This document shows positions 5,876-20,702 of a stretch of 33,891 nt of DNA, piece after piece; the stretch's first letter is position 1, and every line of letters begins with the position of its first letter. Source of the stretch: Sulfurimonas sp. (GTDB lineage Bacteria; Campylobacterota; Campylobacteria; Campylobacterales; Sulfurimonadaceae); NCBI GenBank assembly GCA_027019325.1, contig JALUWT010000017.1, positions 1-33,891 on the forward strand. The letters are read 5' to 3'. A program made the position numbers and the translations under genes. The notes under the pieces were generated by a model. It was given only the letters and a program-made list of their open reading frames with translations. It was not told the origin of the DNA and did not search any database.

Positions 5876-7306
5876 TTAGCACTGGTACGTAGTTTTAAAC
5901 TCGTAAGCAGTTGGACGTCCTTCATCAGGAATAACGTCACGCTCAAATCTGTACTCAAGATACGTTTTAACAAATGTTTCAGAAAATACAGGCTCTAAGA
6001 ATTTGTAATCTTGTGCAAGACCTTCTAATGCTTCACGAAGTGTGTGCGGCATTTGAGGAATTCCACGTTCAGCAATCTCTGCTTGAGAAAGTTCGAAAAG
6101 ATCTTCATCAAGTGGACCAACAGGAACATCTTTGTTAGAAATACCATCAAGACCAGCCATCATCATAGCAGCAAATGCAAGATAAGGACAAGCAGTACTG
6201 TCTGGGAATCTCATCTCAATACGAGTTGCTTTTTCACCAGCTCCATACGGAACACGACAAGCAGCTGAACGGTTTTTAGCAGAGTAAGTTAAGATACTTG
6301 GCGCTTCAAAACCTGGAAGAAGTCTTTTGTATGAGTTTGTTGTCGGATTTGTAAAAGATGCAACAGCAGCAGAGTGCTTAAAGATACCTGCAGCGTAGTT
6401 TACAGCTAATTCTGAAAGGTTACCATAGTTTCCTTCTTTGTAGAAAAGGTTTTTACCATCTTTCCAAAGTGATTGGTGCACGTGCATACCGTTACCATTG
6501 TCACCATAAAGTGGTTTTGGCATAAATGTACATGTTTTACCATTTAAGTGTGCAATCATTTTACAAACATATTTGTATTTTTGAACATTGTCACCGGCAG
6601 TGATGATGTCGCCAAAAACAATACCAATCTCACCTTGACCCTGTGCAACTTCGTGGTGACCAAGAATAACTTCAAGACCAACTTGCTCTAACACTTGCAT
6701 CATCTCTGCGCGCATATCTACCATAGAGTCTGTTGGTGCAACTGGAAAGTATCCACCTTTAGTTCCTGGTCTGTGACCTGTGTTATACATATCATCATAA
6801 GAAGTGTTTGAGTTCCACTCACCCTCTTCAGTATCTACTTTGAAACCAATTTCATTCATATTATCAACAAATTTTACATCGTCAAAAATGAAGAACTCAT
6901 TTTCAGGTCCAAAGTATGCAGCATCTGCAATTCCGTGGTCACTAGCATACTGAAGTGCTTTTTTAGCTATTGAACGTGGACATCTTTCATACAGTTCATT
7001 TTTGTAGATGTCATATACATCACAAAATAGAATAACAGTAGGATCAGCAGTAAAAGGATCTAAGAATGCAGTTGTAGCGTCAGCTTTTAAAAGCATATCA
7101 GATTCATTGATTGGCTGCCAGTTTTCGATTGAAGAACCGTCAAATGGGAAACCATTCTCTAAATTTTCTACATTTACCGCACTATAACGGTAACTAAGAT
7201 GGTGCCAAGCACCTTTGATGTCTGTAAATCTTAAATCTACGAATTGAACGTCGTTCTCGTTACAATATGTAAAGAACTCTTCTATGTTATTAACGAATTT
7301 TCCCAT
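5876..7306 (-). CDS. glnA: Glutamine synthetase type I
   Basis: [75 protein letters not shown]. Confidence 0.97.
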
Positions 7307-7412
7307 TAATTTTCTCCTGAATTTTATCTATGTATAGTATATCTCAATAATCTGTAATCTTTTATGTACTAATGCTTAAAAAATATGCACAACGCTAATA
7401 TGTTTCAAATAA

Positions 7413-9164
7413 TTACAATAGAGAGCTCATGCAGAGATGATTTTTCTCTGATTTGGCCGTTTTTTTCTGTAATGATAAGATATTGTTGATAGTATTAGTA
7501 TATTGCGATTGTTTTTTGACATGTGTAAAGAGTACAGATGCACTTACAGTTAAAATGGGAAATCTCTTTTGATTGCCTGCTCTGTCTTTAGCGACTATGT
7601 AGCCATTTTTCTTATCTTCTTGCGAATAAAATTCTCGTGCATTGTCTTCAAATGTTGTGATTATGTCTGTTAATTGTTTTAAATGGTTTTCTTGCGACTC
7701 TTCAATAGTGCTTGCAACAAAGAAGTCGTCTCCTCCAATGTGACCTTTGAAAAAAGAGTTTGGAAGTTTTTTGGAGATTGTATCTGCAAAGAGTTGGATT
7801 ATCCTGTCGCCATTTCTAAAACCATAGACATCATTGAAAGCTTTAAAATTATCTAAGTCATAATAGCATAACAGTGTTGGTTTATTATTTTGCACGCTTT
7901 GAGTGATGTAAGACTCTACGAGTCTGTTCCCAGGCATTTTAGTAAGAGGGTTTTGATCCCTTGCGACAATAAGATTCTCTTCATTAATAAGTTGAATAAT
8001 GTCTTTTGAGGATAAAAAACCGTAATACTGACTATTTTTTGTAATCAGTATTCCATGCCCATCACTATTGTTTGAAAAGAGTTCGATTATCATAGTAATA
8101 TCGCTGTTTATGTCTATTGAGGGGCAGTAAGTGATAAGATGTTTCAATTTAGATTTTTCTTTTCCATTATTTAGCAGCAGAGAAATCCCATAGGGAGAGT
8201 AGAGATACTCTTTTATTTGTGCTTCAGCGAGAATACCGATAGGTTTAGCATCTTTGTTTATGATAGGGGCATAAGGAATATTGCTGTTTGTTTTGAAATA
8301 ATCTACTACTTCATGCATTGTTGAAGATTTTTGTATAGGTGTGATCTTTTGAGCATGTTTTTTGATGTTGGAGTTGTTCTCTTGCCTTTTTGAACTTTTT
8401 AAAAGTTGGGAAATATGTTGGTAATTTGTTGCTATATCTTGTGTGTTTTTTGTTGGATGTTGGATAAAATAACCCTGAACAAGTGTACATCCTATCTCTT
8501 TGCAGGTAAGATATTCCTCTTTTGTCTCTACTCCTTCTGCTAAAACATCAATGCCTAGCTGAATCGCTAAATGAGTGATACTTTTGACCATCACTTTTCT
8601 TTTTATGTCTTTATCTATGTTTTGTAAAAAGTATCGATCTAGCTTGATGATGTCAGGTGTTGAATCAAAAAGGAGTTTATACCCTGAATATCCAACACCA
8701 AAATCATCAATGGCAATATAGAATGCTTCTTCTTTATAATGTTGTAGTATCTTCTCCATTGAAGTCTGATTAGATATTTCATGCCGCTCGGAAATTTCAA
8801 AGCATAGATTCTCTTTGCGTATGTCGTATTCTTTTAAAAGAGCGTTTGTGTTGCCTGAAGAAAAATCCGGCATTTCAAAGAGCCTGTTATCTAGGTTATA
8901 AAAGAGCTTCATTGTATCATAATTACTGATTTGTGTGAATTTTTTAAAAGTTTTTTCACGCAGTGCCAAATCAAAAGAGTAAAGAATATTTTCTCTATAA
9001 GTAGTATCAAAAACATCGAAGATGGAACGAAATCCAGCGTCAAGATAATTTCTCAGGAGTGCTTCAACCGCATAAATCTCTCCTGTATTGATATTTAGGA
9101 TGGGTTGAAAAGCGATATCTAGAACATCTAAGCGTTCTTGCCATATTTGTGATAATTTTTCCAT
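7413..9164 (-). CDS. EAL-CBS pair-GGDEF protein (c-di-GMP turnover/sensing)
   Basis: EAL motifs VEALLRNY, AIDDFGVGYSG, VLAEGVET, QGYFIQHP; two CBS-like segments; GGDEF-like site HIGGDDFFVAS. Confidence 0.88.
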   Translation of the reverse strand: MEKLSQIWQERLDVLDIAFQPILNINTGEIYAVEALLRNYLDAGFRSIFDVFDTTYRENILYSFDLALREKTFKKFTQISNYDTMKLFYNLDNRLFEMPDFSSGNTNALLKEYDIRKENLCFEISERHEISNQTSMEKILQHYKEEAFYIAIDDFGVGYSGYKLLFDSTPDIIKLDRYFLQNIDKDIKRKVMVKSITHLAIQLGIDVLAEGVETKEEYLTCKEIGCTLVQGYFIQHPTKNTQDIATNYQHISQLLKSSKRQENNSNIKKHAQKITPIQKSSTMHEVVDYFKTNSNIPYAPIINKDAKPIGILAEAQIKEYLYSPYGISLLLNNGKEKSKLKHLITYCPSIDINSDITMIIELFSNNSDGHGILITKNSQYYGFLSSKDIIQLINEENLIVARDQNPLTKMPGNRLVESYITQSVQNNKPTLLCYYDLDNFKAFNDVYGFRNGDRIIQLFADTISKKLPNSFFKGHIGGDDFFVASTIEESQENHLKQLTDIITTFEDNAREFYSQEDKKNGYIVAKDRAGNQKRFPILTVSASVLFTHVKKQSQYTNTINNILSLQKKTAKSEKNHLCMSSLL

Positions 9165-9170
9165 TAAATG

Positions 9171-10886
9171 TTATTCTCCAAAGTATCTTTTTTTCTGTTT
9201 CTCTTTAACCTTATCGATGGAGACAAGAATGAAACTGTCCACACAGTCGGAGAAATCTTTATCTATATTGTACGCACAAAAATGAATGCCTCCCTCCTCG
9301 CATAGATCTGCATACTGTTTATAGAGTGTAGGAACACTTAACTCTAAAAATCCGAGTGCTTTTTTGAGAAGTTTAAAATCTTTACTGTAGTCATTGCCAT
9401 CAAGTTCAGAGATGAACTGCTGTAAATATTCATCATCGAGATTTATTTTATAAGGAAGTCTTGCACTGACTAGACCCTCTTTATCTCTAAAATAGTAATC
9501 ATAAAAGTATAGAATCATATCTTTTGCAACTTTTGGATAATTTCTTGAGATACTGACCGGACCATACATATATTTTATTTGTGGATTGTTTTTTAGATAT
9601 GCACCAATTCCCTGCCAGAGGTAATCAAGTGCACGAGAACCCCAGTACTTTGGCTGCACGAAACTACGACCAAGTTCGATGGAGTCATTGAGGTAATCAT
9701 TGAGCTTATCATTGTACTCAAAGAGTGTATTTGTATAGAGTGCAGCATCGCCGAGCTTTGTGCGTATATCTTCTGTGAGCCCAATGCGGTAGGCACCGAC
9801 AATCTCAAGTGCTTCATCATCCCAGAGAATGATGTGTTTGTAGTATCTGTCATATTTGTCGATGTCTCGTTTTTTATTTGCACCTTCTCCCACCTTGCGA
9901 AAAGATATCTCACGCAGGCGGCCAAGTTCATTTAAAATAGCGCTGTTTTTAAGAGAGTACTCATACAAATATATCTTTTTATTGTCCTTGGTTAAACCAA
10001 GAAGAGAGGACTTTTTTAGCTCTTTTTTTAAATCCCTTCTGTCCTCAGGAAGCGCAATGGACTTTTGTGTCGCAAAGAGGCTGATTCCTTTTTTGAGATT
10101 GTAGAGATGCTTTTTATAAAGGCGTACAAGCTGCTCTTGTTCTATGCCTTTTGGTACGACATTCTCATAAGGAATAAGCTCGCCGACAATCATCTCGATA
10201 GATCTGTTCTTTTGTTTGAACATCTCATTGGAAAGCAGGAACATAGAGAGCTTTTTGTTAAGCGCAGAGACAGAGTAGAATGTTTTGGAGTTTTTCCCGC
10301 CTATGAAAACAGGCAAGATAGGACTGTTTGAGCGCTTTGCAAATTTCAAGAAGCCCTTATGCCATTTTTTGTCTTTTATGCCTGTCGGTGTTGCGCGACT
10401 GACCTCTCCAGAGGGAAAAATGATAACAGCCTCCTCGGAGTTTAAAGTGTCGTAAATCTTATGAATAGCCTCTTTTGACTGCTTGTTTTTGAAGTTGTTG
10501 ATATCAAGCAACATTGGTCTGAGTGGTGTGAGTGTGTTGAGAAAATCATTTGCGATTATTTTGACATCTTTACGGACAGAGCTGATGAGCTTGATAAGAG
10601 CGAGTGCATCGAGTGCACCTAAGGGGTGGTTCGCGATAATGACCACACGTCCTTCAGTAGGAATATTCTCGAGATATTTATCTGAGACAAAATAGTTAAA
10701 CTGTAACTCATCAAGCACATGCTCCACAAACTCCAAAGGAGCAAGATGACTGTTCTTTTTTAAAAACTTGTTTATCTCATCTTGATGAATGACAGAGTCG
10801 GCAAACTTTGAAATAGCACCTTTGATGATTTTATTGTTTTGGAGTTTAGGATATTTTTTTTGTATCATTTTTTTAACATCTAACAC
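9171..10886 (-). CDS. olsF: Bifunctional acyltransferase: N-terminal PlsC-like plus C-terminal GNAT/OlsB-like domain (OlsF-type ornithine lipid synthase candidate)
   Basis: N-terminal IIANHPLGALDALALI and IIFPSGEVSR (lysophospholipid acyltransferase type); C-terminal EIVGAYRIG...SIELGRSFVQPKYWGSRALDYLWQGIGAYL (Acetyltransf_5/OlsB-like). GTG start overlaps the upstream ORF stop (TAGTG). Confidence 0.75.
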   Translation of the reverse strand: MLDVKKMIQKKYPKLQNNKIIKGAISKFADSVIHQDEINKFLKKNSHLAPLEFVEHVLDELQFNYFVSDKYLENIPTEGRVVIIANHPLGALDALALIKLISSVRKDVKIIANDFLNTLTPLRPMLLDINNFKNKQSKEAIHKIYDTLNSEEAVIIFPSGEVSRATPTGIKDKKWHKGFLKFAKRSNSPILPVFIGGKNSKTFYSVSALNKKLSMFLLSNEMFKQKNRSIEMIVGELIPYENVVPKGIEQEQLVRLYKKHLYNLKKGISLFATQKSIALPEDRRDLKKELKKSSLLGLTKDNKKIYLYEYSLKNSAILNELGRLREISFRKVGEGANKKRDIDKYDRYYKHIILWDDEALEIVGAYRIGLTEDIRTKLGDAALYTNTLFEYNDKLNDYLNDSIELGRSFVQPKYWGSRALDYLWQGIGAYLKNNPQIKYMYGPVSISRNYPKVAKDMILYFYDYYFRDKEGLVSARLPYKINLDDEYLQQFISELDGNDYSKDFKLLKKALGFLELSVPTLYKQYADLCEEGGIHFCAYNIDKDFSDCVDSFILVSIDKVKEKQKKRYFGE

Positions 10887-11113
10887 TATGCAATCCTTTG
10901 CATATTGACATACCAGTCTTCGTTAAAGTATCTTGCAGAATCTATGAGTTTGACATATAAAGAGTCTCTTAGTAGTTCGAGTTTTTTAATATATTCTTGG
11001 GGAACATCAAGTTCTTGACAGAGATACTCTTCCACGATATCTAGATTAAGGTCACTTTGTGCATATCCAAGTTCAAGATTTTCGGTTTTTATATTAAATT
11101 CACGCAGTTTCAT
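10886..11113 (-). CDS. Small uncharacterised protein (75 aa), first gene of the olsF-like operon
   Basis: ORF with GGAG Shine-Dalgarno about 7 nt upstream of ATG; translationally coupled to the acyltransferase; preceded by a Pho-box-like promoter. Confidence 0.7.
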   Translation of the reverse strand: MKLREFNIKTENLELGYAQSDLNLDIVEEYLCQELDVPQEYIKKLELLRDSLYVKLIDSARYFNEDWYVNMQRIA

Positions 11114-11141
11114 TCTTTGTCTCCATTAAATGGTATGAAGA

Positions 11142-11174
11142 ATGATAAGATAGCTTGATTACAATTATATTACA
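11142..11174 (-). promoter_or_regulatory. Predicted Pho-box promoter of the 75-aa ORF/olsF-like/EAL operon
   Basis: Minus strand TGTAATA-TAAT-TGTAATC (11174-11157), 9 bp, TATCAT (11147-11142). Confidence 0.7.
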
Positions 11175-11192
11175 TTAGATTTTCTCTTTCTC

Positions 11193-11450
11193 TCACTTTT
11201 TTGTTTTCGCAAAACCAGCACCTTTTTTTGTTTTTGCTTCAAGTCCCAATGATTCAATCTTCGTTCTATAATCAAGTCCTTTTGTATGCATCGCAGCAAA
11301 ACACTTTGCAATGACAGCAATGGTGTTTGGTACTTCGCCTTTTTTTTTATAAGACTGAATGTTCTTTTCACTTACTTTTATGAGTTTGCTAAATTTTGGC
11401 AGACTAATCTCTGCATCTAACAGCAGTTTTTTAAATTCTATAAATGTCAT
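11193..11450 (-). CDS. Small HTH/XRE-like protein with Lys-rich C-terminal tail
   Basis: ISLPKFSKLIKVSEKNIQSYKKKGEVPNTIAVIAKCF resembles a lambda-repressor-like HTH; tail AKTKKGAGFAKTKK. Confidence 0.65.
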   Translation of the reverse strand: MTFIEFKKLLLDAEISLPKFSKLIKVSEKNIQSYKKKGEVPNTIAVIAKCFAAMHTKGLDYRTKIESLGLEAKTKKGAGFAKTKK

Positions 11451-11518
11451 CTAATTGCTCCTAAAACGAAACATATTATAGTATTTCTATCTTAACTCTA
11501 TATTTTATAGGGATTTTG

Positions 11519-11547
11519 TTGACAAAGTTAAATAAATTATATATAAT
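11519..11547 (+). promoter_or_regulatory. Consensus sigma70 promoter of the H1-like gene
   Basis: TTGACA (11519-11524), 17-bp spacer, TATAAT (11542-11547). Confidence 0.8.
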
Positions 11548-11599
11548 AGTCATAATTTATTACTATTAGTAATGAAATTGAAATTCAAAGGAGCCTCAA

Positions 11600-11824
11600 A
11601 TGGCAAAAGTCTTAAAGAAAAAAGTTGTAAAAGCAGTTGCAAAAAAAGCTGTAAAAAAAGCGGTAGCGAAAAAAGCTGTACCGAAAAAATCAGCGAAAAA
11701 AGTTACAAAAAAAGTTGTTAAAAAAGCGGTAAAAGTAAAACCTACTGCAAAAAAAGCTGTAAAAAAAGTTGCTAAAAAAGTTGTGAAAAAAGCAGCTCCA
11801 AAAAAAGCTACTAAAAAGAAATAG
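11600..11824 (+). CDS. Histone H1-like Lys/Ala/Val-rich DNA-binding protein
   Basis: 74 aa composed almost entirely of KKAVKK/KKVVKKA-type repeats; AAGGAG Shine-Dalgarno at about 11589. Confidence 0.85.
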   Translation: MAKVLKKKVVKAVAKKAVKKAVAKKAVPKKSAKKVTKKVVKKAVKVKPTAKKAVKKVAKKVVKKAAPKKATKKK

Positions 11825-13190
11825 TGAAAATAGACCCTTCGTTTACTTTTGAACTTATTTTGAGTTGAAAGTGATGAAGGTTTACTATTTTATTGACCAA
11901 AAAGAGACCGAGCCCTAGAGAGTTGTTCCAGCGTTGTTGCTGTACTCTGTAAAATTTTTCGGTAATGTTTTGTAAGTCTTGCTCACTGATACCGACACCG
12001 GTGTCTTTTACTTCAAACTGTTTGTCTGAAACGACTACATGTACTTCATCTTCAGAGTACTTTATGGCATTTTCTATCAAGTTATTAATGACAATACTAA
12101 AAAGTGTCGGGTCAATTTCTACCTCTGCATCTGTGCCCCCCTCAACCATAACACTGCGTCGCGGATAGTTTAACTGTAGGTTCTGTGCACACTCTTGCGT
12201 GAGTGTGAAGAGATTTGTCTTTTGTGTCGTGATAGACTGATGGTCTCCATCAAGTTTCATAGAGAGTCTGAGTGTATCAATGAGATTACTGAGTTTTTGA
12301 CCATTGTTGTGAATTTTACCAAGAAATTTTTTACGGATAGTGGTATTGAGATTTTCATCCTCAAGCAGTGTCTGCGAGTAGCCATTAATGATGGCAATAG
12401 GATTTTTAAACTCATGGCTGATGGCAGAGAGGATGTCATCTTTTTGTTTGTTAGAAGCTTTGAGCTCATCTGTGTATTTTGTTTTTTTCTTCTCTTTTTT
12501 GACGATAATCTGTGCAACTTTTGTAAGCAACTTGGTAATGAGAGCAAACTCTTGAGAATAGTCCGAAGAGATGTAGGTTGATTTTTTCTTTTTGGCAAGA
12601 GATTTTAAAAACTCTACTATTTTTCCTGTTTCATACTCTATTTGAGTATTTATTTTATAGGTAACGACAAAAATTGCTATAAAAAAGATGATGAGAGCAC
12701 CGAGAATTTTCATACCGAGTGAAAATATCTCTGCCTGAATGCCTTTTATCTCTCTTGCAAGACGAATGTAAACTACTTTTCCGTTAAGGGTGTACTTTTT
12801 TACTACATAGAGCAGGTCTTTATCGACAGTATGAGAGTGGCGTATTTTAAAACCAAACTCACTCTTGTCAGACTGCATAATCTCATCACGGTAGCGATGG
12901 TTTTCCATCTCTTTTTTATCTTTGTCTGATTCGGCTAAGACTTTTCCATCGGCTCCTATCAGTGTGATACGAGCATGGAGTTTTTCTTTGACTATTTGCA
13001 CAAATGTGTCTAGGTTTGTGTGAGGATTTATTTGAAGAGAGAGGAGTTCTATGTCTTGCTTGAGTGCCTCTTTGGTTGTGTCGATGTAAAATTCATAGAC
13101 CCAGTAGTAAACGATAGTACCAATAATGACAAAGAGGGCAAGAAAAAGTGTTAAAAATTTTCTAAGTACGATTTGATGAAATTTTAACAC
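11811..13190 (-). CDS. phoR: PhoR-like membrane sensor histidine kinase
   Basis: Two TM segments flanking a periplasmic domain; SAISHEFKNPIAIINGYSQTLLED H-box; NLIENAIKYSE; LGLGLFLV; last gene of the pst-phoU cluster. Confidence 0.8.
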   Translation of the reverse strand: MLKFHQIVLRKFLTLFLALFVIIGTIVYYWVYEFYIDTTKEALKQDIELLSLQINPHTNLDTFVQIVKEKLHARITLIGADGKVLAESDKDKKEMENHRYRDEIMQSDKSEFGFKIRHSHTVDKDLLYVVKKYTLNGKVVYIRLAREIKGIQAEIFSLGMKILGALIIFFIAIFVVTYKINTQIEYETGKIVEFLKSLAKKKKSTYISSDYSQEFALITKLLTKVAQIIVKKEKKKTKYTDELKASNKQKDDILSAISHEFKNPIAIINGYSQTLLEDENLNTTIRKKFLGKIHNNGQKLSNLIDTLRLSMKLDGDHQSITTQKTNLFTLTQECAQNLQLNYPRRSVMVEGGTDAEVEIDPTLFSIVINNLIENAIKYSEDEVHVVVSDKQFEVKDTGVGISEQDLQNITEKFYRVQQQRWNNSLGLGLFLVNKIVNLHHFQLKISSKVNEGSIFTISF

Positions 13191-13203
13191 TTATGACCTC
13201 TTT

Positions 13204-13866
13204 TTAGTTGCGAAGACTTCCGCCGACTTTGATGTATACGAGCAGATTTGCAACACTGATGGCGCGACCTGCAATCTTTTCACTTTTACGGAGTGCACGA
13301 AGCATTTTATGAAACTTTTCAAAACTAGTCGAACAGTTCTCTGCTTGTGCAACAAGTTTTCTCTCTATCATCTCGTATAAATCATCTGCTTTGTTCTCTT
13401 CTATAAGAACCTCTTCATACATCTCTTGAAGTTCATCTACATCATCAACACTTAACATGGTGATACTAGTCTTGATTGCTTTGACTGTTGAAGCTTGCAT
13501 AGGGACAGTGTATTCGTTGATGGTCTTTACATCTAAGTCTTCGCAGACATCTGTAAAACCGCGGATGAAGCTGCGTGTATTTGAACAGGCGCGTGCTACC
13601 TCATTTGTGATTTTAAAATAAGCGACAACCTGACGTAGATCTCTTGCTTCTGGTGTATAGAGTGCCAAAATCTTAATGATGGCATTATCTATTTCATCTG
13701 TTCGCGATGTAATATTTTTAATAGTGTTTCTTGCTTCATTAAACCGCTCTTGATTACAATCTTTTAATGCACCAAGAATTAACTCATTGGCTTTGACGAG
13801 GTCCTCCCCAATCTCTGTAATCTTTTTTGTCACTTCATCTAAGTTTTGTTTGAATGTCTTTACCAT
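13204..13866 (-). CDS. phoU: Phosphate transport system regulator PhoU
   Basis: PhoU helical repeats (FNEARNTIKNITSRTDEIDNAIIKILALYTPEARDLRQVVAYFKITNEVARAC); downstream of pstB. Confidence 0.9.
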   Translation of the reverse strand: MVKTFKQNLDEVTKKITEIGEDLVKANELILGALKDCNQERFNEARNTIKNITSRTDEIDNAIIKILALYTPEARDLRQVVAYFKITNEVARACSNTRSFIRGFTDVCEDLDVKTINEYTVPMQASTVKAIKTSITMLSVDDVDELQEMYEEVLIEENKADDLYEMIERKLVAQAENCSTSFEKFHKMLRALRKSEKIAGRAISVANLLVYIKVGGSLRN

Positions 13867-14648
13867 TATCCGAATCTCCCTGTGATGTAATCTTCCGTTT
13901 GTTTCTCTTTTGGATTTAAAAATATGTTTTCTGTTTTGTCATACTCGATTAAATCGCCTAAATACATAAAAGCTGTATAGTCGCTAATACGACTTGCTTG
14001 CTGCATATTGTGTGTAACAATAGCAATGCTTACATCGTTTTTCAGCTCAACGATGAGCTCTTCGATGGCTCCTGTTGAGATGGGATCAAGTGCAGAAGTT
14101 GGTTCATCAAACAAAAGTATTTCAGGTTTTACCGCAACTGCTCTAGCAATACACAAACGCTGTTGTTGTCCGCCTGAAAGTCCCATAGCAGATTTCTCTA
14201 GTCTGTCATGTACCTCTTTCCAGAGTGCTGAGCCTTTGAGTGCGGCCTCGACACGGTCAGAGAGTTCACTTTTGTTCTTGATACCGGTGATTCTTAGACC
14301 ATATGCGACATTATCAAAGATGCTCATTGGAAATGGTGTCGGTTTTTGAAAAATCATTCCCACTTTTTGGCGTAACTCTATAAACTCATTCTCTTTTTTA
14401 ATCTCTAAAATATTGTTGTACTTTCCACTCTTAAAATCAAGTAACTCTATTTTTCCCTCATATTTGTTTCCAGGGTAGAGATCATGGATTCTGTTCATTG
14501 AGCGAAGTAGCGTTGATTTACCACAACCACTAGGACCTATAAGTGCTGTTATTCTATTTTTCTTAATAGGTAGTGTAATATCTTTTAGTGAAGGGTCACT
14601 TACCCCTGGATATGTAAAAGAGAATTTTTTAATATTCATAACTGGCAT
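13866..14648 (-). CDS. pstB: Phosphate ABC transporter ATP-binding protein PstB
   Basis: [64 protein letters not shown]. Confidence 0.97.
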
Positions 14649-14660
14649 GGTAATTTGTCC

Positions 14661-15467
14661 TTATTTTTTGTTTCTTGTAATAAATTTACCGGTAAGGTTA
14701 ATCACTAAAACCATAACAGTAAGTATGAATGATGCTGCCCAAGCTAAATCTCTACTACTTGTTTGCACATCACTTGCGAGATCATAAATACTCACACTAA
14801 GCGATGGAAATGCATGTGTTAAATCAAGCGTAAAGTAGTTACTTGTTTGTGAAGTAAAAAGAAGTGGTGCAGTCTCTCCAACAATTCTTGCAAATGCAAG
14901 AAGTATTCCTGTCATAATTCCCACTTTTGCAGATTTTATAACAATATCAAAGATAACTTTGTATTTGCTGGCACCAAGTGCAATTCCCGCTTCACGCAGC
15001 TCTTGTGGAACAAGTGAAAGCATAGAGTCTGTTGTGCTGATGACGATGGGAATCATCATAATTGCAAGGGCAATAGAGCCTGCAAAACCACTGGTATGCC
15101 CTGTTGGAACAACAATGATGGCATAAACAAACGCACCAATGACAATAGAAGGTGCACTCATCATAATATCGCTCAGATTTCTAATAAGGTTTGCATAGCG
15201 TCCTTGTCCATATTCTCGAATGTAGATACCTGCGACCATTCCAAGAGGAATACCAATAAGACTTGCCATCCCTGCTAAAATAAACTGCCCTATGATAAGG
15301 TTACGAAGACCGTTGTTTATAAGGTCATTTACAAAAAGTGAAAAGTGAAATGAACTTAAGCCTTTTATGAAAAGTGTTACTAAAATCCACGTTAAAAATG
15401 CAAGCCCTATAAGAGCAGAGATTGTAGAGAGTGTTAAAATGATTTTGTTGATAAGCAACCTGCTCAT
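14661..15467 (-). CDS. pstA: Phosphate ABC transporter permease PstA
   Basis: Multiple TM segments; IREYGQ, LREAGIALGASKYKVIFDIVIKSAKVGIMTGILLAFARIVGETAPLLFT. Confidence 0.95.
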   Translation of the reverse strand: MSRLLINKIILTLSTISALIGLAFLTWILVTLFIKGLSSFHFSLFVNDLINNGLRNLIIGQFILAGMASLIGIPLGMVAGIYIREYGQGRYANLIRNLSDIMMSAPSIVIGAFVYAIIVVPTGHTSGFAGSIALAIMMIPIVISTTDSMLSLVPQELREAGIALGASKYKVIFDIVIKSAKVGIMTGILLAFARIVGETAPLLFTSQTSNYFTLDLTHAFPSLSVSIYDLASDVQTSSRDLAWAASFILTVMVLVINLTGKFITRNKK

Positions 15468-16450
15468 TAGTTAGCCTTTCTTAGAAAATAGAATTTTGCA
15501 AAAGAGATAATTGCAAAACTCATAACAAAGAGGATAAGTGCAAGATAGAAAAGAGAACTCATACCAAGTCCGCTTGCCTCTCCAAAGTTATTTGCTAGCG
15601 CAACTGGAATGGAAATAGTTGGGTCTGTAATCTTATGTGGCAATTCAAAGATAGAACCAATCAAGAATGCTACTGCCATTGTCTCACCAAGTGCACGTCC
15701 TAAAGAGAGGATGATAGAGCCAATAATTCCAACTTTTGAGTATGGAAAAATAACATCTTTAATGACCTCAAATTTTGTTGCACCAAGTGCATACGCAGAC
15801 TCTTTTAAAATATCTGGTGTGGTGTTCATAGAATCTCTTGTGATTGCTGCCATAAATGGAAGAATCATAACTCCTAAAACAAGCCCAGCTGTAAGGAGTG
15901 AGACTTGAAAACCTCCAAAGAGATTGGCTACAATAGGTGCAAAATAGTAAAGTCCCCACATACCAAAAATAATACTCGGAATAGCAGCAAGTAGCTCGAT
16001 AGCACCCCCGACAAAGGTTGCAATTTTTTTTGGAGCAATTTCAGCTAAAAAGATTGCAATACCCATAGCAATTGGCATAGCAAACGCAAGTGCTATAAAA
16101 GTTGAGAAAATAGTTCCTACAAGTGGCACTAAACCACCATAAATAGTCTTTGTGAGTGTGTTATCTTCATCTTCTAGCATCATATCATCAGAATTGTCGC
16201 CAAAGTCATTTACATCGACTGCTTCATCATCTGTATCTGAAACAGCACTTTGTGTAACACTCTTGTTGGTTTTGGCTTGAGGCATTGTAAGAGGAACCTC
16301 TTTATTCCATGCAGGGTCAACTATAAAGTTCAAACCAAACTCATTAATTGCGGGTCTAGCTGCATTAAAAAGTGTGATAAAAATTCCAAGCAGAATGATA
16401 AACACTAAAGTAGCACTAGAAAAGGCGAACTTTTGAAAGATTTTTTCCAT
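15467..16450 (-). CDS. pstC: Phosphate ABC transporter permease PstC
   Basis: LKESAYALGATKFEVIKDVIFPYSKVGIIGSIILSLGRALGETMAVAFLIG; PstC order before PstA; acidic insertion after TM1. Confidence 0.95.
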   Translation of the reverse strand: MEKIFQKFAFSSATLVFIILLGIFITLFNAARPAINEFGLNFIVDPAWNKEVPLTMPQAKTNKSVTQSAVSDTDDEAVDVNDFGDNSDDMMLEDEDNTLTKTIYGGLVPLVGTIFSTFIALAFAMPIAMGIAIFLAEIAPKKIATFVGGAIELLAAIPSIIFGMWGLYYFAPIVANLFGGFQVSLLTAGLVLGVMILPFMAAITRDSMNTTPDILKESAYALGATKFEVIKDVIFPYSKVGIIGSIILSLGRALGETMAVAFLIGSIFELPHKITDPTISIPVALANNFGEASGLGMSSLFYLALILFVMSFAIISFAKFYFLRKAN

Positions 16451-16479
16451 TGAATAGACCTAGTTAAATTGATAACGAT

Positions 16480-16512
16480 ATTATATAAGAATTTAATTAC
16501 AAAGAGATTACA
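16480..16512 (-). promoter_or_regulatory. Predicted Pho-box promoter of pstC operon
   Basis: Minus strand TGTAATC-TCTT-TGTAATT (16512-16495), 9 bp, TATAAT (16485-16480). Confidence 0.78.
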
Positions 16513-16520
16513 GAATGGGT

Positions 16521-16585
16521 GCCCCCCTATAAAAAGAGGAGAATTTGAAGAAAATGAAATTGTGAAATTTGTTTTATAGAGGGGC
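16521..16585. repeat. 14-bp inverted repeat with 37-nt loop between pstS and pstC
   Basis: GCCCCCCTATAAAA (16521-16534) vs TTTTATAGAGGGGC (16572-16585), one mismatch. Confidence 0.75.
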
Positions 16586-16601
16586 CAAAGAAGAGAAGAA
16601 G

Positions 16602-16617
16602 GGGATTATTTAATCCC
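16602..16617 (-). terminator. Small hairpin overlapping the pstS stop codon
   Basis: GGGATTA-AA-TAATCCC (minus strand) followed by pyrimidine-rich TTCTTCTCTTCTTT; possible weak terminator. Confidence 0.35.
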
Positions 16618-17610
16618 TTTTTCTTCCCAGTATTTTCTTATTTTGTTTGTTAGTGCGTTTGGTAATGGAACATAACCAAGGCTAGAAGCGATATCTGCAC
16701 CGTTTTTGTATGACCAATTATAGAATGCTGTTACTTTCTTATCCATAGCTTTATGCTCTTTTGGAAGAAGAATAAATGTTGCTGCTACGATAGGGTAAGA
16801 TTTTGCACCTGCAGGATCTGCGATAACTGCATAGAAATCTTTTCTAGGATCAAAACTAGCTTTTGCCGCACTCTCTTGAAATGCTGAAAGTTTTGGTTTG
16901 ATGTAGTAGCCTTCTCTATTTTCTAGTGTTGCCATAGAAATACCATTTGATTTTGCATCCGCATAGTCCATATAACCTACAGAGTATGGAGTTTGCTTGA
17001 TAAGTGCGCCAACACCTGGATTACCTTTACCGCCTACATGATGATTACCTGGCCATGTTACAGATTTTTTAGCACCAAATGTGTTTCTCCATTCTAAGTT
17101 ACTTTTTGCAAGGTAGTAAGTAAAGTTAAAAGTTGTACCACTCGCATCTGAACGATGAACAAAAGTTAGTTTTTTGTGTGGTAAGTGTGCATTTGGATTG
17201 CTCATTGTGATAAGTTTGTTATCCCAGTATTTAATGTGACCTAAAGCTATCTCAGCAATTGCTGCACGACTTAGTTTGATATTATTGTGGTTTGGAATAT
17301 TGTATGCCATAGTAATTGCACCAACAACTGCTGGGAATTGGTAAAGATTATGTTTTTTTAGTGTTCTTGGAGTAAGAGGTTTATCGCTACCACCGAAGTT
17401 TGATTGTCTTGCTTCGATATGTTTGATACCAGCACCAGAACCCTCACTAATATAGTCAATTTTGATACCAGTATCTTTGTTATATGCCTTAATCCATTGT
17501 TGATACACTGAATATGGAAAAGAAGCTCCACTTCCTTTGATTACATCATTAGCCATAAGACCACCAGCTAAAACTGAAGTTGCAAGAGCAAGTTTAAGTA
17601 CTTTTGTCAT
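16606..17610 (-). CDS. pstS: Phosphate ABC transporter substrate-binding protein PstS
   Basis: Signal peptide; IKGSGASFPYSVYQQWIKAY, DYISEGSGAGIKHIEARQSNFGGSDKPL, HRSDASGTTFNFTYYL, KQTPYSVGYMDYADAK. Confidence 0.96.
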   Translation of the reverse strand: MTKVLKLALATSVLAGGLMANDVIKGSGASFPYSVYQQWIKAYNKDTGIKIDYISEGSGAGIKHIEARQSNFGGSDKPLTPRTLKKHNLYQFPAVVGAITMAYNIPNHNNIKLSRAAIAEIALGHIKYWDNKLITMSNPNAHLPHKKLTFVHRSDASGTTFNFTYYLAKSNLEWRNTFGAKKSVTWPGNHHVGGKGNPGVGALIKQTPYSVGYMDYADAKSNGISMATLENREGYYIKPKLSAFQESAAKASFDPRKDFYAVIADPAGAKSYPIVAATFILLPKEHKAMDKKVTAFYNWSYKNGADIASSLGYVPLPNALTNKIRKYWEEKGIK

Positions 17611-17640: not shown

Positions 17641-17673
17641 AGTATAAAACACTAAGGTTACAAATTGATTACA
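17641..17673 (-). promoter_or_regulatory. Predicted Pho-box promoter of pstS
   Basis: Minus strand TGTAATC-AATT-TGTAACC (17673-17656), 9 bp, TATACT (17646-17641). Confidence 0.8.
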
Positions 17674-19387: not shown

Positions 19388-19420
19388 TGTAACCTTCTTG
19401 TAATCAAGTAATTTTATACT
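19388..19420 (+). promoter_or_regulatory. Predicted Pho-box promoter of the OprO/P-like porin
   Basis: TGTAACC-TTCT-TGTAATC (19388-19405), 9 bp, TATACT (19415-19420). Confidence 0.8.
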
Positions 19421-19457: not shown

Positions 19458-20702
19458 ATGAAAAGAATCGTTTTATCAGCTTTAGCTGCTTTAACTCTAG
19501 GCTCAGTTGCTGCAAATGCAGGAGTTACAAAATTATACCAAGATGCAAATGGTCAAGTTTTTACTAAGGCGGGTGAAGGTCGTACTTTACTTAAAACACC
19601 AACACCTGTTTTTTCTCATGCAGATAAATTGAAGTTTTCAGGCCAAACTTTTATAGGATATAAAAGTACACATTATGCAGATAGTAATACACCAAGTCAG
19701 CAAGACTTTGAAATTCGTCGTGGTTATTTTCAACTAAAAGCATATCTTTTAGATGATCCAAAATCTTACTACCGTGTTACGATGGATGTAACTAGAGAAG
19801 GAGCAACAACAGCTACAACTAATGGAAGTATGATAGTTCGTGCAAAATATGCTTACTTAAACCTACATAATGTTTTACCTGTAACAAGTCTTGAAATAGG
19901 TCTTGCACATCGTCCTTGGCATGATTATGAAGAGCACAACTCTTGGATGTACAGAAGTATTTCAGAAATTTTGATTGAAAATCACAACTCTGCTCACCTT
20001 TCTAGCTCAGCTGACTTTGGAGTAATGGCTAAAACTAGAACAAAATACTTTGATGCAGATTACGGTGTGTTTAACGGTGAAGGGTATCACTCTGCACAAG
20101 TATCAAATGGTATGAGTTTAGAGTGGAGATTCACAGGCCACTTGCTTGGTACTCAATCACATCATCATCCTGAAAAGCATACATACTTTGATGCATCATT
20201 CTTTGGTCAATTGAACTATAAACACTCTGCAGTAACTCAAGATACAAGCTATGTTCTTACAGATACAAATGGTAATACTCATAATGTTAGTGCTTCAAAA
20301 ACAATTGGTTATGATGATTTAAAATTTTATGGACTACATAGTGTATTTAATATGCCGGCATTTCTTATATCAGCTCAGTATGTTACATCGACAAATACAT
20401 CTAAGAATCAAGCAACACATGCTTCTAAAGGTTCGGGTAGAGGTTATAGTGTAAATGCAGGGTATCGTATGGGTAGTGAACATCAATACAAAGTATTTGC
20501 TAGATATGACAAGTGGACTCCAGATGTAAAAACTGGTGCTATAGAGTATGCTAGAAAAACAGAAATTGCGGGTGCAGCATGGAGACAAAATAGTAATGTT
20601 GAATGGATAGCTAATGTTACTATTGATAACAATCAATATGCTGCAAATACTGCTAATCCTAAATCAACTGCTTATATGTTGACAACGCAAATAGATTTCT
20701 AA
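19458..20702 (+). CDS. Phosphate/polyphosphate-selective porin (OprO/OprP family-like)
   Basis: Signal peptide MKRIVLSALAALTLGSVAANA; QDFEIRRGYFQLKAYLLDDPKSYYRVTMDVTRE...YLNLHNVLPVTSLEIGLAHRPW; terminal Phe (TQIDF). Confidence 0.75.
   Translation: MKRIVLSALAALTLGSVAANAGVTKLYQDANGQVFTKAGEGRTLLKTPTPVFSHADKLKFSGQTFIGYKSTHYADSNTPSQQDFEIRRGYFQLKAYLLDDPKSYYRVTMDVTREGATTATTNGSMIVRAKYAYLNLHNVLPVTSLEIGLAHRPWHDYEEHNSWMYRSISEILIENHNSAHLSSSADFGVMAKTRTKYFDADYGVFNGEGYHSAQVSNGMSLEWRFTGHLLGTQSHHHPEKHTYFDASFFGQLNYKHSAVTQDTSYVLTDTNGNTHNVSASKTIGYDDLKFYGLHSVFNMPAFLISAQYVTSTNTSKNQATHASKGSGRGYSVNAGYRMGSEHQYKVFARYDKWTPDVKTGAIEYARKTEIAGAAWRQNSNVEWIANVTIDNNQYAANTANPKSTAYMLTTQIDF

Follow-up and report, generated by a model that had tools for sequence, protein, structure and literature searches.

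Three adjacent genes in a 33,891-nucleotide stretch of Sulfurimonas DNA (hereafter the window) very probably form one operon of the Pho regulon, predicted to yield ornithine lipid together with a co-transcribed putative phosphodiesterase. These genes encode a 75-aa protein, a bifunctional ornithine lipid synthase (olsF), and a protein with EAL, CBS and GGDEF domains (eal). The host genome, of 2.04 Mb in 218 contigs (94% complete, 7.7% contamination), has Sulfurimonas MAGs as its closest named relatives. On the minus strand of the window the genes are transcribed in the order pstS, pstC, pstA, pstB, phoU, a PhoR-like kinase gene, an 85-aa ORF, the 75-aa ORF, olsF, eal and glnA (Table 1), and the arrangement porin-pstSCAB-phoU-phoR-(small)-olsF-eal-glnA is kept in many relatives. 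The initial annotation had placed olsF and the 75-aa ORF at the correct coordinates; the range that it covered also took in positions 7413-9164, and the eal gene of the operon was left there uninterpreted.

Table 1. Coordinates of the genes and promoters discussed in the text
Feature	Position	Strand	Evidence
eal, EAL-CBS-GGDEF protein, predicted c-di-GMP phosphodiesterase	7413..9164	-	Pfam EAL 164, GGDEF 53, CBS 28 bits
olsF, bifunctional ornithine lipid synthase	9171..10886	-	NF052615 full-length match; PF19576, PF13444, PF01553 over cut-offs
75-aa protein, uncharacterised family, conserved core ...ELEIP...YFNDDWYVNLQR	10886..11113	-	homologues, alignment, own Pho-like box when unlinked
Pho-type promoter of the 75-aa ORF/olsF unit: TGTAATATAATTGTAAT, 10 bases, TATCAT	11142..11174	-	architecture common to pstC, pstS and 19388; kept in relatives
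phoR-like kinase, phoU, pstB, pstA, pstC, pstS	11811..17610	-	profile matches; order with olsF-eal-glnA kept in relatives
PhoR-like kinase	13190-11811	-	
pstS	17610-16606	-	
Pho-type promoter of pstC: TGTAATCTCTTTGTAAT-N10-TATAAT	16480..16512	-	box and -10 spacing
Pho-type promoter of pstS: TGTAATCAATTTGTAAC-N10-TATACT	17641..17673	-	box and -10 spacing
Pho-type promoter of gene 19458-20702: TGTAACCTTCTTGTAAT-N10-TATACT	19388..19420	+	box before 15/17 orthologues

The OlsF protein and its neighbourhood

The olsF gene has a GTG start at 10886 and a stop at 9171, and its product of 571 residues aligns from residue 1 to 569 with positions 1-569 (of 570) of the NCBIfam equivalog model NF052615, with a score of 808 bits (cut-off, 620). 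The N-terminal half is a PlsC-like O-acyltransferase (PF19576, residues 9-266) and the C-terminal half a GNAT N-acyltransferase (PF13444, residues 324-425); both Pfam matches exceed their cut-offs, as does that of PF01553. The OlsF-like identity proposed in the initial annotation was therefore borne out, and the profile search that it had suggested as a check assigns the protein to the OlsF equivalog family: with the models for glycine lipids, NF053697 (GlsA) and NF053696 (GlsB), it gave 199.1 and 199.2 bits, below their cut-offs of 260 and 300, and the OlsB models scored far below theirs. On all the sequence features examined, the predicted protein belongs to the OlsF family.

OlsF is widespread: of the 397 Campylobacterota genomes that are largely complete, 118 exceed the cut-off. 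Within the genus, a match at E <= 0.001 was obtained in 48 of 72 genomes of good quality, a count that includes weak PlsC-only matches. A gammaproteobacterial homologue from Glaciecola is 45% identical and reaches 838 bits on NF052615 (L014). Several genomes of the genus (G008, G010, G013, G030, G032, G047, G082 and G093) carry a second OlsF of around 41% identity; the loci of this type, which include L106, L107, L108 and L109, score close to the equivalog cut-off, L106 for instance at 651 bits, and no Pho box was found before the three copies examined (L106-L108).

Between phoR and the putative operon, the 85-aa ORF (11193-11450, minus strand) encodes an XRE-like protein and has no box; it is conserved in close relatives, and in other genomes it lies upstream of eal. 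A gene for a 74-aa Lys/Ala-rich, histone-H1-like protein (11600-11824, plus strand) is convergent with the end of the phoR-like gene and has a perfect TTGACA-17-TATAAT promoter at 11519-11547. A generic sigma-70 scan of positions 7200-11600 gave 18 matches against 15.6 in shuffled sequences, i.e., no excess, and no RNA family was found in 7000-12000.

A Pho-type promoter shared with the pst genes

Classical Pho boxes are direct repeats with an 11-bp period that replace the -35 element, and in E. coli the half-site is of the TGTCA type. The half-site is different in the window, where four promoters (11174-, 16512-, 17673- and 19388+) have the architecture TGTAAY-N5-TGTAAY-N10-TATNNT with identical spacing. 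That of the olsF unit reads TGTAAT-N5-TGTAAT-N10-TATCAT, the box itself occupying 11174-11158 on the minus strand. It had been claimed from the sequence that the 75-aa ORF is preceded by the same box, at the same spacing, as pstS and pstC, and this likeness stands far above chance. Across the whole genome the repeat TGTAAY-N5-TGTAAY has five exact matches, four of them in the window; the fifth was discounted, since it sits within a valS-like coding sequence. When the -10 element was included, four exact matches were obtained genome-wide, all in the window, and a reversed-pattern control gave none. Among 85 genomes of the genus, the full box with its -10 was matched in 69 and the control pattern in only two. 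The one perfect box (19388-19404) outside the pst-olsF group precedes the gene at 19458-20702 (plus strand), which encodes a 414-aa protein with a signal-peptide-like start and no Pfam match, possibly a phosphate-regulated envelope protein.

The box was also counted in relatives, allowing one mismatch, demanding a -10 at precisely the spacing given above and considering 350 bp before each gene; the expected counts were derived from dinucleotide shuffles. It was present before olsF in 40 of 79 distinct related loci, against 0.03 expected, and also before pstS (18/21), pstC (12/13) and the orthologues of gene 19458 (15/17). By these rules pstB had a box in 3 of 14 cases, and none was found before the control genes, which comprise internal genes of the operon and unrelated neighbours: pstA (0/17), phoU (0/13), phoR (0/13), glnA (0/14), the leuA-like gene (0/11) and the 85-aa ORF (0/9). 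Where olsF is the first gene of its unit, the box is mostly located 50-67 bp upstream of it; where the 75-aa gene intervenes, as in the window and in L044-L046, the distance is 288-293 bp. One olsF-bearing family of the phylum is mostly devoid of the box (most of L146-L164). As a sequence element, the Pho box upstream of olsF is thus real and phylogenetically conserved, and it shows the traits by which a Pho regulon is recognised in sequence, i.e., a repeat with an 11-bp period, a fixed distance to the -10, occurrence in the pst promoters and conservation. At the level of sequence, the predicted Pho control of olsF has good support, because the box accompanies olsF at 40 loci and is absent from controls such as pstA, phoU and glnA.

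No gene for a phosphate response regulator was found in the window, including the phoU/phoR junction (13190-13204), the place where some relatives (L010, L011 and L126) have one. The best candidate lies on another contig (G000:C201:2632-3300) and is 53% identical to the regulator that a relative encodes between phoU and phoR; given this location, its pairing with the box is tentative.

The small protein and the EAL-CBS-GGDEF protein

The 75-aa ORF ends in a TAG whose last base is also the first of the olsF GTG (TAGTG), an arrangement that makes plausible the translational coupling of the two genes that had been suggested earlier. Homologues of the 75-aa protein occur in 29 of 120 genomes of the genus, and no significant match was obtained in Pfam, NCBIfam or PHROG. 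An AlphaFold2 model, for which only four sequences were eligible, was too weak for a fold search (pLDDT 60, pTM 0.45). When linked to olsF, nine out of ten of these genes have a box, including copies located after olsF (L048 and L033). Unlinked copies (n=19) have it in 6 cases with up to one mismatch and in 15 with up to two, against expectations of 0.000 and 0.055. Several homologues are found beside an alaS-like gene (L095, L098, L100, L101, L102 and L104), often with a degenerate Pho-like box some 60 bp upstream. A role of the 75-aa protein as a subunit of OlsF was rejected as the default reading, because in many relatives its homologues sit elsewhere, several of them by the alaS-like gene, and several olsF loci lack one.

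The eal gene starts after a gap of 6 bp from the end of olsF and is likely the last gene of the operon. The catalytic motifs of the EAL domain are intact in the window protein (EALLR, DDFG, K-x-D, EGVET and QGY) and kept in most relatives; in place of GGDEF, this protein and every relative checked have GGDDF. Orthologues of eal are present in 61 of 120 genomes, many of them with no olsF nearby. Those that directly follow olsF never have a box of their own (0/12), and those apart from olsF have it in 15 of 23 cases, mostly 41-43 bp before the start and with the -10 at N10; in L011, where other genes lie between olsF and eal, the latter has its own box. At many unlinked small and eal genes the second half-site is degenerate (TGAAAT, TGCAAT), so that their regulation may be weaker. 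Putative Pho-type control thus shows on separate evidence for each of the three genes, which in the window appear joined behind one box.

Proposed mechanism, alternatives and known systems

Under phosphate scarcity, a regulator of the PhoB/PhosR type would bind the conserved TGTAAY-N5-TGTAAY repeat, whose 11-bp period would take the place of the -35 element, and would activate transcription. As expected for a member of its family, OlsF would N-acylate ornithine with a 3-hydroxy fatty acid and then O-acylate the product, and the resulting phosphorus-free ornithine lipid would replace phospholipid; this organism may remodel its membrane in this way during phosphate starvation, a response with a direct precedent in V. 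cholerae (PMC12186959). The EAL protein encoded on the same transcript probably lowers c-di-GMP in parallel and, more tentatively, this drop might couple starvation to a change of lifestyle such as detachment; the 75-aa protein would be a further Pho-responsive product. Low-phosphate induction, ornithine-lipid synthesis, c-di-GMP hydrolysis and binding of a PhoB/PhosR-type regulator are all predictions from sequence. The linkage of the small gene and eal to olsF is not constant across relatives, and we give an even chance to the complete scheme, in which phosphate starvation would act through one operon to promote ornithine-lipid remodelling, lowering of c-di-GMP by a CBS-containing phosphodiesterase and production of a small protein that is Pho-regulated and belongs to an undescribed family.

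The natural substrate of a Pho-controlled OlsF could be another amino acid (glycine, glutamine or lysine), and the product an aminolipid other than ornithine lipid; related acyltransferases do take other amino acids, and both halves of the protein are also matched by the GlsA and GlsB models. Nevertheless, these matches are below the cut-offs whereas the score on the OlsF equivalog greatly exceeds the one set for that model, and the genus is already known to make ornithine lipids (PMC9789136), which makes a different substrate improbable. A doubt of another kind concerns expression. In Sulfurimonas gotlandica, ornithine lipids represented approximately 40% of the lipids when the medium contained 0.2 mM phosphate (PMC9789136), so that their production may be partly constitutive, and the second OlsF of V. 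cholerae answers to salinity (PMC12186959). From this it could be argued that expression of olsF is constitutive or follows a stress other than phosphate scarcity (salinity, temperature), with the box driving mainly the small gene and minor read-through into olsF. We hold this to be quite unlikely: where relatives lack the small gene, the box directly precedes olsF, its longer distance in the window and in L044-L046 is only due to the intervening small gene, and the overlapping stop and start argue for a single transcript.

It could also be that eal is unrelated to olsF and driven by a promoter of its own, its place behind olsF reflecting mere shared synteny, given that many of its orthologues lie away from olsF and that glnA and the leuA-like gene are neighbours conserved to an equal degree. 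The distribution of its box, frequent in unlinked copies and absent from directly linked ones, is what would be expected if the olsF promoter were shared, and an independent eal is accordingly considered rather doubtful. The preferred reading thus remains that of one Pho-controlled operon, and under it the locus would give a genetic explanation for the ornithine lipids previously observed in the genus, whose members have been described as ranking with the most abundant sulphur oxidisers of the sea (PMC9789136). The signature TGTAAY-N5-TGTAAY-N10-TATNNT also offers a simple means to find Pho-regulon genes genus-wide, and the promoter shared with a putative phosphodiesterase and a small protein leads to the testable prediction that phosphate starvation alters surface lifestyle as well as lipids.

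In the open-access literature, to which the search was confined (subscription papers being outside it), there was no account of a Pho-controlled olsF in Campylobacterota, of an olsF operon with an EAL-CBS-GGDEF gene, of the small-protein family, or of a Pho module joining lipid, c-di-GMP and a small protein. OlsF and its Pho control are themselves of known kinds. The OlsF of Serratia proteamaculans and VC0489 of V. cholerae belong to the same bifunctional two-acyltransferase family according to the NCBI equivalog model, and VC0489 makes PhoB-dependent ornithine lipids (PMC12186959), the kind of promoter control that is predicted here. The boxless paralogues of around 41% identity recall V. cholerae too, where only one of the two OlsF copies is phosphate-controlled (PMC12186959). 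In contrast to the Serratia and V. cholerae genes, olsF is located here beside pst-phoU-phoR, with the small-protein gene before it and the EAL-CBS-GGDEF gene after it. The N- and O-acyltransferase halves are homologous to GlsB and GlsA of Bacteroides, but are here fused in one chain that scores below both cut-offs. Within the same phylum, the two-component system PhosS/PhosR of Campylobacter jejuni responds to phosphate and controls the pst genes (PMC3197622, PMC4415409). Finally, RapA of P. fluorescens is a c-di-GMP phosphodiesterase induced by the Pho system (PMC3032545), a control by phosphate starvation like the one predicted for eal; unlike RapA, the protein described here has the EAL-CBS-GGDEF architecture and its gene shares an operon with a lipid synthase. 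If the prediction is true, the EAL arm would represent a link from phosphate to c-di-GMP as in Pseudomonas, with a new part.
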